A stretch of 64,000 bases of DNA from an uncultured Prevotellaceae bacterium (lineage in GTDB: Bacteria > Bacteroidota > Bacteroidia > Bacteroidales > Bacteroidaceae): positions 1 through 64,000 of the forward strand of contig CACYJV010000037.1 of the NCBI GenBank assembly GCA_902774815.1. The letters run 5' to 3'. Both the position numbers and the translations under genes were made by a program. The notes under the pieces are model-generated. The model ran no database searches, was not told where the DNA came from, and was given only the letters and a program-made list of their open reading frames with translations. Shown piece after piece: positions 11,522 through 43,206 of this stretch. The first letter of the stretch is position 1, and the number at the start of each line of letters is the position of its first letter.

Positions 11522-11562
11522 AACCATCAACCATCGACTATCAACTATGAACTATCAACTAA
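11522..11562 (+). repeat. Heptad leader repeat crossing the amidohydrolase start
   Basis: AACCATC, AACCATC, GACTATC, AACTATG, AACTATC, AACTAAT. The ATG of the gene is the end of the fourth unit, so the repeat also codes residues 2-5. Confidence 0.8.
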
Positions 11563-17671: not shown

Positions 17672-17740
17672 AACACCGCCCCTACCATCTTCAAAGAAGA
17701 AGGGTGAAAGACTGTTTAAGGTCTTTTGAACCGACGAAGT

Positions 17741-17894
17741 CAATGCTCCTGCATCACTGGGTCATTGCTTTCTATGCACTAAAGCTATGCTTTCCAAGCT
17801 ATAAAGTAATGCTTTGCAAGGCATAAACCAATGCTTTCCAAGTATTAGGTCATTGCTTCTTATGCATCAAACCATTGCTTTTCATGGAGTAGAG
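17741..17894. repeat. 22-bp tandem array (7 units)
   Basis: Seven degenerate units with the TGCT core spaced exactly 22 bp (17744, 17766, 17788, 17810, 17832, 17854, 17876). Rough consensus nnAATGCTTTCCAAGcaTTA plus AA. It fills most of the 315-base gap between the BspA-like gene and mdh and looks related to the larger array at 38887-39330. Confidence 0.85.
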
Positions 17895-23761: not shown

Positions 23762-24730
23762 ATGGAACAGCAAGAAAGAATCAACCTCGAGCAGTTTGCC
23801 GAGAAGATGAATGCCTTACGGCAGAACATCGGACGCGTCATTGTGGGACAGGAGGAGACAGTCGACCTTGTCCTCACGGCTATTCTGGCCGATGGCCATG
23901 TGCTCATTGAAGGTGTGCCAGGTGTGGCAAAGACATTGTTGGCACGACTCATTGCCCGACTCGTCGATACACGCTTCAGTCGCATACAGTTCACGCCCGA
24001 TCTCATGCCGAGCGATGTGCTTGGCACGACGGTGTTCAACATGAAGACGCAGTCTTTCGATTTCCATCCGGGACCCGTGTTTGCCGATGTCGTGCTGGTC
24101 GATGAGATAAACCGTGCTCCTGCCAAGACACAGGCAGCTTTGTTTGAGGTAATGGAGGAACGGCAGGTGACCATCGATGGTGAGACGCATCGCATGGGCG
24201 ATGTATACACCATCATTGCCACGCAAAACCCAGTGGAACAGGAGGGTACTTACAAATTGCCAGAGGCGCAAACCGACCGCTTTCTCATGAAGATTACGAT
24301 GGGTTATCCGTCGATTGATGAAGAAGTCGCCATCCTGGAGCGCCATCATGCCAATGCAACCTTTGTGAAATTGGACGACGTGAAGCCCGTGATTACTCAC
24401 GATGAACTGCTTCAGTTGCGCCAGATGATGCAAAAAGTATTTGTTGAGCCATCGTTGTTGCGCTACATCGCTTCCATTGTTCAACTGTCACGACAGTCGA
24501 AGGCTATTTTTCTCGGTGCCTCGCCCCGCGCCTCTGTAGCCATGTTGCAAGCCTCAAAAGCCTATGCACTACTGCAAGGACGCGACTTTGTAACGCCCGA
24601 CGACATCAAACAGGTGACGCCCAGTATTCTTCAGCATCGTCTTATCCTTAATGCAGAGGCTGAGATGGAGGGGCATACCCCCTTGAAGGTTGCCCAGCGA
24701 CTCATTGAAAAGGTGGAAGTGCCAAAATAA
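23762..24730 (+). CDS. MoxR-family AAA+ ATPase
   Basis: 322 residues, cytosolic. Walker A GVPGVAKT (51-58), Walker B VVLVDEINRAP (about 110-120), sensor 1 in IIATQNPVEQEGTY and a C-terminal lid with sensor 2 (GASPRASVAML). MoxR ATPases act as chaperones that help mature or regulate partner complexes, often with DUF58/VWA proteins, which matches the following gene. The start directly abuts the previous stop. Confidence 0.95.
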   Translation: MEQQERINLEQFAEKMNALRQNIGRVIVGQEETVDLVLTAILADGHVLIEGVPGVAKTLLARLIARLVDTRFSRIQFTPDLMPSDVLGTTVFNMKTQSFDFHPGPVFADVVLVDEINRAPAKTQAALFEVMEERQVTIDGETHRMGDVYTIIATQNPVEQEGTYKLPEAQTDRFLMKITMGYPSIDEEVAILERHHANATFVKLDDVKPVITHDELLQLRQMMQKVFVEPSLLRYIASIVQLSRQSKAIFLGASPRASVAMLQASKAYALLQGRDFVTPDDIKQVTPSILQHRLILNAEAEMEGHTPLKVAQRLIEKVEVPK

Positions 24731-24731
24731 A

Positions 24732-24775
24732 TCGTAAATCTGTAAATTGTAGATCTATAAATAGTAAATAGCAAC
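24732..24775 (+). repeat. Heptad leader repeat before DUF58 gene
   Basis: AATCGTA, AATCTGT, AAATTGT, AGATCTA, TAAATAG, TAAATAG then CAAC and the ATG. Confidence 0.78.
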
Positions 24776-38526: not shown

Positions 38527-38844
38527 ATGGAAGATAACAACAACCAAAACAAACAGCTACAGCTGAACATCAAGCCTGAGGTGGCCTCAGGTCAGTACTC
38601 CAACCTCGTGTTGATTACTCACTCACATACTGATTTTATTCTCGACTTTGCACGTCACCTGCCAGGAATGCCCCAACCCGACGTGTGCAGCCGCATCATC
38701 ATGGCACCAGAACATGCCAAGCGCCTGCTCGGTGCACTGCAAGAGAACATCTACAAGTACGAGCAGCAGTTCGGAAAGATAGAGATTCCCGGGCAGCCTC
38801 AGCGCACGATAGCTCCCTTTGGGAAGAGTCGCGGCGAGGCTTGA
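38527..38844 (+). CDS. DUF3467 family protein
   Basis: 105 residues from ATG 38527; an upstream ATG at 38503 falls inside the promoter and is excluded. Soluble protein with the DUF3467 pattern (GQYSNLVLITHSHTDFILDF, PDVCSRIIMAPEHAKRLLGA, LQENIYKYEQQFG). Members are small cytosolic proteins across Bacteroidota and other phyla with unknown function. Its own promoter gives a short leader. Confidence 0.88.
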   Translation: MEDNNNQNKQLQLNIKPEVASGQYSNLVLITHSHTDFILDFARHLPGMPQPDVCSRIIMAPEHAKRLLGALQENIYKYEQQFGKIEIPGQPQRTIAPFGKSRGEA

Positions 38845-38886
38845 TGGCGTTTATTGTTTTTTTTACCGAAGTCTTAAGATCCTTTC

Positions 38887-39330
38887 ACTATAGTCAAGTC
38901 GTCTTATTGCTGTAGTGAAAGGATTTTATTATTGTAGTTAAATAATCTTTTTGCTGTAGTTAAATAATCTTTTTGCTGTAGTTAAATGAACATTTGACTG
39001 AGGTTAAAAGCTTCAAAGGCGTTGCTGTCGCACCCGTAAGGAATTGCTCTCAGCCCTCTAAAGCATTGCTCTCTACCCTCAGAAGCATAGCTTTCAATAC
39101 TCTAAAGCATAGTTCTCTCCCCCATAAAAGCATAGCTTTCTACACCCTGAAGCATAGCTTTCTACCCCCTGAAGCATAGCTTTCTACCCTCTAAAACATT
39201 GCTCTCTCCCCTCTAAAGCATAGCTCTCTTACCCTATAAGCATCGCTATAGCCCATCAAATGCATAGCTTTCGGTCTCCCAATGCTCTGCTTTCTCACCC
39301 TAAAAGCATCGCTACGGCCTTCAAAGGTTT
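38887..39330. repeat. Long 22-bp periodic array (about 20 units, two sequence blocks in one phase)
   Basis: Block 1 (38887-39019): six units like CTGTAGTTAAATAATCTTTT, with the first base at 38888, 38910, 38932, 38954, 38976 and 38998. Block 2 (39020-39330): about 14 units like AAGCATAGCTTTCTACCCTC, with the GCT core at 39024, 39046, 39068, 39090, 39112, 39135, 39157, 39179, 39201, 39223, 39245, 39267, 39289 and 39311; only one spacing is 23. The phase carries over from block 1 to block 2. Short ORFs in this stretch are by-products of the repeat. Confidence 0.85.
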
Positions 39331-39582
39331 GGTTAACTGTCCTTGAAAACAATAGCAGCTCGATTGTATTCAGAATCAAATGGCATTCAGTGGCATTGTT
39401 TTCATCCTTCGAAGGCAATGCATTTGCAATCCCATTCTGGTGGTCCGTCCATCCGCTCATGGTGACCTGATGAAACCATGTTAATGGGTTAAAATGACCA
39501 TACCGCACTCTTAAAATGTTCTTTCAAATGTTATTTATTCTTAATTTGTAGCGATACAAAGAAAAATGTTACTCATTTATTT
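39331..39582. other. Gap between 22-bp array and str operon promoter
   Basis: No gene, RNA gene or clear repeat recognised; the sequence becomes AT-rich towards the promoter. Confidence 0.45.
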
Positions 39583-39724: not shown

Positions 39725-40105
39725 ATGCCTACAATTTCACAATTGGTAAGAAAAGGCAGAAAGGAGCTCGTAGATAAGAGCAAGTCGCCTGCTCTGGACT
39801 CATGTCCTCAGCGTCGTGGCGTCTGTGTACGCGTCTACACTACGACCCCGAAGAAGCCTAATTCGGCAATGCGTAAGGTTGCCCGTGTTCGTTTGACAAA
39901 CCAGAAGGAAGTGAACTCCTACATTCCCGGTGAGGGTCACAACCTGCAAGAGCACTCCATCGTGCTGGTGCGTGGTGGTCGTGTAAAGGATCTTCCTGGT
40001 GTGCGCTATCACATCGTCCGTGGTACACTTGATACCGCCGGTGTTGCTAACCGCACTCAGCGCCGTTCGAAGTACGGTGCCAAGCGTCCGAAGCAGAAGA
40101 AGTAA
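39725..40105 (+). CDS. rpsL: 30S ribosomal protein S12
   Basis: 126 residues, full length. [20 protein letters not shown] start, [20 protein letters not shown] and [20 protein letters not shown] are the S12 signatures at the decoding centre; K in PKKPNSA is the site of streptomycin-resistance mutations in other species and is unchanged here. First gene of the str operon. Confidence 0.98.
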
Positions 40106-43169: not shown

Positions 43170-43206
43170 ATATAAATCGTAAATCAATAAATCGTAAATT
43201 TAAATT
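43170..43206 (+). repeat. Heptad leader repeat before rpsJ
   Basis: AAATCGT, AAATCAA, TAAATCG, TAAATTT, AAATT then ATG. Same unit as before mdh, RDD, DUF58 and Xaa-Pro peptidase genes. Confidence 0.78.

Follow-up and report, generated by a model that had tools for sequence, protein, structure and literature searches.

A tandem array of dyad-symmetric 22-bp units between a DUF3467 gene and rpsL, and related arrays in the Prevotella group

The window analyzed here, a 64,000-nucleotide stretch of a contig from an uncultured Prevotellaceae bacterium (genome G000), contains an intergenic array of 20 units at a nearly constant 22-bp pitch. With a little more confidence than doubt, we read it as a tandem operator array for a putative homodimeric DNA-binding protein that fixes the pitch. 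As we infer the protein and its packing, each 22-bp unit would be a symmetric site for one dimer, and adjacent dimers would pack side by side in a cooperative assembly whose dimer geometry sets the pitch. The arrays would probably serve as boundaries or as elements of local chromatin, and the recognized half-site may have been exchanged between species with the pitch retained. An earlier note on this DNA did not describe three of the features reported here: the arrays are dispersed genome-wide, their units are often dyad-symmetric, and the motif varies from species to species.

Anatomy, number, and context of the arrays

The earlier note had described about 20 units at 22-bp steps with a single step of 23, and proposed autocorrelation as a check. 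Over positions 38887–39330 the autocorrelation is 0.635 at lag 22, 0.565 at lag 44, and 0.508 at lag 66, against a top value of 0.380 over lags 15–59 in 1000 dinucleotide shuffles. Mapped singly, the units form two blocks (Table 1). B-type centers lie at 38890.5, 38912.5, 38934.5, 38956.5, 38978.5, and 39000.5; A-type centers, of the main array type of this genome, lie at 39022, 39044, 39066, 39088, and 39110 and, after the 23-bp step, at 39133, 39155, 39177, 39199, 39221, 39243, 39265, 39287, and 39309. An extra loose B-type match at 38931.5 overlaps the third unit and is left out of the six, and a weak additional A-type match at 39329 lies beyond the fourteen. The step at the B/A joint is 21.5 bp, with the half base arising because an even-centered motif meets an odd-centered one. 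The A-type consensus is AAAGCAATGCTTT. The mapped centers thus confirm the described steps and the change of type mid-array with the register intact. Period is indeed better kept than sequence in this array, and the exclusion of a CRISPR stands, as the repeats differ among themselves and the spacers are alike within one array.

Table 1. Features of the window (the names rpsG, fusA, and rpsJ come from inspection of translations)
Feature	Positions	Strand	Description
Block 1, B type, 6 units	38880..39011	.	Dyad core ACTATAGT / GCTGTAGT, 22-bp steps
Block 2, A type, 14 units	39016..39336	.	Dyad core AAAGC-NNN-GCTTT, 22-bp steps, one of 23
Second A-type 22-bp array, 7 units	17737..17881	.	Centers 17743 to 17875, between convergent ORFs
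DUF3467 gene (Pfam PF11950), neighbor only	38527..38844	+	Window array follows its 3' end
rpsL (ribosomal protein S12), neighbor only	39725..40105	+	First gene of downstream rpsL-rpsG-fusA-rpsJ cluster

A second class of short tandem repeats, with 7- or 15-bp units, is present in the window at 11522–11561, 24727–24769, and 43173–43199, and runs of 7-bp repeats are also frequent in samples of another genome, G009 (L209, L210).

The DNA of the window array matches at least 41 places in G000, itself included (E ≤ 0.001; 40 of 89 first-look candidates scored). Twenty stretches of 20 kb, picked without regard to these matches, contain 18 peaks at lag 22, compared with one at lag 20 and two at lag 23; lag 21 has 11 peaks, and by inspection the peaks at lags 21, 14, and 28 are mostly 7-bp repeats. 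After a best-period filter 18 arrays are left in 464 kb, window included, which extrapolates to about 140 intergenic arrays per 3.67 Mb of G000. In a pool of 3.31 Mb of Prevotella-group DNA there are 128 lag-22 peaks, against 1, 0, and 1 in block-shuffled copies, and 6, 43, 23, and 23 peaks at lags 20, 21, 23, and 24, respectively. Of the core-to-core steps between A-type units (n = 273), 218 are of 22 bp, 29 of 23, none of 21, one of 20, four of 17, one of 15, and the remainder of at least 30, in a set of 41 G000 arrays of which about half were fetched by resemblance to the window array. A genome may contain several unlike motifs: G000 has A, B, and C types, and G026 also has several. The pitch is not always 22, as a palindromic array of period 21 with GATAATTAATTATC-like units is found in G003 (L204:3172–3303).

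Outside ORFs of at least 150 aa lie 122 of 124 period-22 arrays. A coding repeat is rejected, given that 22 is not divisible by 3 and that the arrays, with few exceptions, lie outside ORFs. Gene context was counted for 52 arrays in the G000, G016, and G024 samples, after removal of ORFs shorter than 600 bp whose overlap with an array exceeds 80 bp. None of the 52 falls inside a called gene; 19 lie between convergent, 25 between tandem, and five between divergent genes, with three undetermined, where intergenic length predicts 11, 26, and 12 (chi-square p 0.008). Within the 25 tandem pairs there is no significant pull toward the upstream 3' end versus the downstream start (Wilcoxon p 0.15). A chromosome-domain (Ter-like) distribution was considered for G016, where a first set of 20 samples hinted at a depleted sector. 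It was rejected on 20 independent samples, which contain 10 arrays in six samples within the suspected sector and 14 in 14 elsewhere; with 48 arrays per 800 kb, this genome displays no sector depletion in the independent samples.

The window array occupies the intergenic DNA between the DUF3467 gene and rpsL. The suggestion that it forms part of the ribosomal promoter locus is not sustained, since the arrays are dispersed and only seven of 49 syntenic relatives have one at this site (threshold 0.53), mostly of other sequences, leaving 42 without one at the threshold used. In L146 the array lies 2.1 kb downstream in an interval that is long. Among near relatives, L105 carries an A-type array at the DUF3467–rpsL site and L104 and L106 carry none; absence from these close relatives indicates that no single locus is indispensable.

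Dyad symmetry, register, and conservation of the core

Symmetry was assessed by a column-shuffle test for circular dyad symmetry (nominal p ≤ 0.05). The test is passed by 64 of 124 period-22 arrays, the other 60 failing singly, and by 51 of 100 in a smaller set. Pass rates at other periods are 12 of 20 (period 23), 4 of 20 (period 21), and 9 of 95 (periods 14, 15, 16, 18, 20, 24, 27, and 30 together); in G024 only four of 10 arrays pass. About half of the arrays, when tested one at a time, have dyad-symmetric sites with matching half-sites, as expected of an operator array.

In 55 of 100 arrays the best and second-best dyads are exactly 11 bp apart, a distance at which two of the six scored pairs are shared by construction. 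Modulo 11 bp, strong dyads coincide within 0.5 bp in four of four cases in the window array, six of nine in L014, and five of six in L017 (15 of 19 in these three A/B composites together), while the period-11 Fourier phases of the composite halves differ by 0.8, 1.6, and 1.2 bp with low amplitudes. The register is firmly kept across types in the window array, and the data for the other composites, L014 and L017, are suggestive of the same. Among 43 arrays scanned, two or more B-type matches occur only in L012, L014, L017, and the window array at 38880, all of which by inspection also have A-type units. The proposal that the array presents its motif on one face of the DNA holds only approximately. 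At a helical repeat of 10.5 bp per turn, 22 bp is 2.1 turns of B-DNA rather than a whole number, and successive sites advance by about 34 degrees each.

The dyads might alternatively reflect nucleic-acid structure, as hairpins or cruciforms acting in RNA (as terminators or in mRNA stability) or as supercoil sinks. The units are inverted repeats, the arrays favor convergent positions, and long stem-loops are predicted for the BrickBuilt element in the available parts of its description (PMC4596501), all consistent with such a role. The cores show no base-pair covariation, however: in 311 A-type cores from 41 G000 arrays, Watson–Crick arm pairs number 1043 of 1555, compared with 1051 ± 10 when partners are shuffled, and neither 129 cores of G016 nor 68 of G024 have an excess of compensatory changes. 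The RNA of 39040–39320 (A block) folds no better than its shuffles (z −0.63; 52 of 200 shuffles at least equal), and a search of 17000–42000 against Rfam at the gathering threshold returns no match. Left and right half-sites have base frequencies within about 6 percentage points of each other in G000 and G016, minor letters included (the half-site counts are not symmetric; the scoring matrix is), while those of G024 agree less well and differ at the outer positions. Given the lack of covariation, the likeness of the half-sites, and an RNA fold equal to that of shuffles, a protein with two-fold symmetry accounts for the dyads better than base pairing does, and a structural role is very unlikely.

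Conservation is concentrated in the core. Across the 41 G000 arrays core identity is 0.73 within and 0.66 between arrays, with corresponding spacer values of 0.44 and 0.30. As the matrix had served to pick these cores, and similarity to fetch about half of the arrays, the comparison was rerun on 20 blind-sampled arrays, giving between-array identities of 0.63 for the 13-bp core and 0.27 for the 9-bp spacer. Controls with shuffled array letters gave 0.40–0.42 for cores and 0.25 for spacers; of eight permuted seeds, two arrived at the true motif and six yielded core identities of 0.41–0.48. A core that is kept beside a nearly random spacer argues against copying followed by neutral decay, which would erode both alike. 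In G016 the spacer is partly conserved too (0.43 between arrays).

These figures also bear on the view that the arrays are ordinary neutral minisatellites grown by replication slippage. Slippage would account for spacers common to the units of one array (0.39 within versus 0.27 between the blind-sampled arrays), and the 7-bp and 15-bp tandem repeats show that other such repeats exist in the same genomes. It does not explain one pitch over unrelated motifs and species, a core kept without its spacer, or dyads largely confined to periods near 22, and we regard it as highly improbable.

At a score of 12, the A-type core occurs 87 times in arrays and nine times in other intergenic DNA, the latter a count that permuted motifs also reach (mean 3.4, maximum 12), and four of these nine have a neighboring unit 22–23 bp away. 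In coding DNA it occurs 22 times, against 12.9 for permuted motifs (maximum 27). Thus, the core is found mainly in arrays, with no clear use as a single site of the kind expected for an ordinary regulator.

Pitch and motif across genomes, and candidate factors

The same sampling applied to two complete genomes of the genus yields 24 (G016) and 10 (G024) lag-22 peaks, with 0, 1, and 0 peaks at lags 20, 21, and 23 in each. The motifs are different ones: G016 cores are ATTTGA-N-TCAAAT-like and G024 units are AAACGTTT-like. By inspection, the unit of Hoylesella loescheii is GGAAC-AGT-GTTCC and that of a red-deer Prevotella is GGACA-ACT-TGTCC, while the A-type core is common to the close relatives L104 and L105. 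Of 133 loci retrieved through DUF3467, the best 80, from named genomes or MAGs, were scanned (1.33 Mb, array threshold 0.58): 23 have at least one lag-22 array, with 32 arrays altogether; the same loci have 4, 9, 12, and 7 arrays at lags 20, 21, 23, and 24. Ten further genomes of the genus (310 kb) contain ten lag-22 arrays. The earlier note proposed a search for the consensus in Prevotellaceae genomes; by DNA similarity the motif of the window array is found in just five of 60 genomes, its own included. The organism of the window is assigned to Prevotella on the basis of the named relatives closest to it.

A sample of 20 genomes from the order's other families (273 kb; a single contig per genome, in some cases very short) contains one lag-22 and two lag-23 arrays. 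Given this scarcity, compared with the frequency of lag-22 arrays in the genus, the 22-bp class is a Prevotella-group feature as far as sampled. Both lag-23 arrays belong to G053 (L196, 8208–8323 and 9608–9787), and are tandem arrays with ACAAGTTTGT-like cores. Like BrickBuilt, they may be members of this class at a different pitch.

A difficulty for the operator-array reading is that several unrelated motifs in one genome would require several proteins or one flexible protein. Candidates were sought among HU-HIG, DUF6078, and Y1 transposase, none of which tracks the arrays. HU-HIG (PF18291), a family expanded in Bacteroidetes, was rejected since array-rich G000 has only four matches (best E 5.7e-12), and G003 has 30 yet a single filtered lag-22 array in a 40-kb sample. 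DUF6078 (PF19555) was rejected since none was found in array-bearing G016, nor in G012, which has A-type matches. Two of three DUF6078 copies examined lie within 400 bp of arrays, compared with 259 of 2775 ORFs. DUF6078 genes directly adjoin 22-bp arrays of two types in two genomes (L058:18556–18990, L215:7883–8308), and the family is multicopy in some Prevotella genomes. Y1 transposase (RAYT) has three matches each in G000 and G016; G016 is the one genome with matches among six others searched, and on this basis the family was rejected as the factor, although two of its three G000 loci hold an array.

The arrays may instead be selfish or mobile repeats without host function, multiplied and spread by a recombinase or transposase that recognizes the symmetric unit; the core would then be conserved since only recognizable units multiply. 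We consider this doubtful, though a serious alternative. Genome G108 (two contigs, 2.7 Mb) contains a dispersed intergenic element of about 190 bp (L286 and L287–L316) with conserved ends and a 22-bp palindromic center, in at least 40 copies that are 85–100% identical to the query (40 scored of 296 candidates). Such copies indicate that arrays are duplicated as a whole in the G108 lineage. In G000, L049 and L053 have in common 74 bp abutting the array, and L010 and L027 have 272 bp upstream in common. Further points in favor are that an array may be present or absent at one site between related species, and that a 22-bp array is present within the roughly 3.3 kb of two of the three G000 loci for Y1 transposase. 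Against this, the flanks of 43 G000 arrays have no leader, tail, or terminal repeat in common; 14 flank pairs match, several of them through short repeats of 19–33 bp. Spacers are nearly random between arrays and cores are not, unlike recent copies. Finally, Y1 transposase was not found in array-bearing G024, G108, G026, and G003, nor in G012, which is known solely by A-type matches.

Two details of these loci may be added. The region of about 270 bp upstream of L010 and L027 is 90% identical and contains hairpin-like inverted repeats, and the arrays that follow it differ. Of the arrays at two Y1 loci (L232:3182–3291, L233:2399–2542), one is A-type and one consists of three near-identical copies of another unit.

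Returning to the operator-array reading, it is tempting to extend it to a pitch-coded chromatin element. One family of array-forming proteins might pack at 22 bp genus-wide, with its half-site and its many arrays per genome re-specified in each lineage, such that spacing is inherited and sequence is disposable. We offer this tentatively, as a possibility well short of probable, and liken it to the co-evolution of centromere or recombination-hotspot DNA. Were it so, a genus common in gut, rumen, and mouth would have a genome-wide element defined by spacing rather than sequence, largely missed by sequence-similarity searches. PINSR, and perhaps BrickBuilt, would be placed in one class with it, an undiscovered array-binding protein would be predicted, and the genus would offer a natural series of protein–DNA co-evolution in bacteria. 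The pitch scan itself is simple and applicable to any genome. In the literature searched, no description of a Prevotella-wide class of 22-bp arrays was found.

Comparison with known systems

Lambda OR, sopC, and matS/MatP combine symmetric sites, a dimeric protein, and cooperative spacing, and matS is a 13-bp 5-3-5 palindrome, a layout like that of the A-type core. These systems comprise one or few loci, or single sites, of fixed sequence, whereas here there are many arrays per genome (about 140) with motifs that differ between species, and the likeness is one of resemblance only.

REPs, in the available parts of one description, are stem-loops of 20–40 bp with a GTAG or CGTC tag, associated with RAYT transposases (PMC3733652). 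REPs and BIMEs resemble the arrays in being small, dispersed, extragenic palindromes that sometimes form tandem clusters, and differ in that the arrays have a fixed pitch and no base-pair covariation. The letters GTAG happen to occur in B- and C-type units; the A-type core and consensus lack both GTAG and CGTC.

PINSR of P. intermedia, in the parts of its description covered, is a 188-bp intergenic repeat of 177–184 copies without terminal inverted repeats and of unknown function, located downstream of tnaA in one strain; those parts give no 22-bp period or dyads (PMC4755523). On that account PINSR is intergenic and dispersed like the arrays, but is one 188-bp unit with a fixed consensus, whereas G000 arrays are without common ends and vary in unit number. 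A fixed unit of about 188 bp with conserved ends is absent from G000 arrays and present in the G108 element. In 30 aligned copies of the latter the ends are conserved, the 22-bp period reaches 0.73 over 44 columns and 0.42 over the whole element, and dyads recur every 11 bp, at columns 128, 139, 150, 161, and 172. G108 has no array downstream of tnaA and one upstream, which counts against identity with PINSR. Judged by the description of PINSR rather than its sequence, the G108 element is probably PINSR or a near relative, and PINSR is probably one member of the 22-bp class, with fixed ends.

The BrickBuilt MITE of Porphyromonas gingivalis has a 23-nt unit, a leader and tail with IS5-like terminal inverted repeats, and 19 copies, and is interpreted as a MITE and stem-loop in the parts of the report available (PMC4596501, Klein 2015). 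The same parts mention tandem repeats of 41, 23, and 22 nt noted earlier in P. gingivalis W83, locations not given. BrickBuilt differs from the arrays in its 23-nt unit, set against the preponderance of 22-bp over 23-bp steps here, and in its leader, tail, and terminal inverted repeats, which have no counterpart common to the 43 G000 arrays; MITE-like ends common to the arrays are likewise rejected. As described, it is like them an intergenic minisatellite in which short, imperfect units adjoin without spacers, dispersed over a genome of the same order, and it is their nearest relative outside Prevotella.
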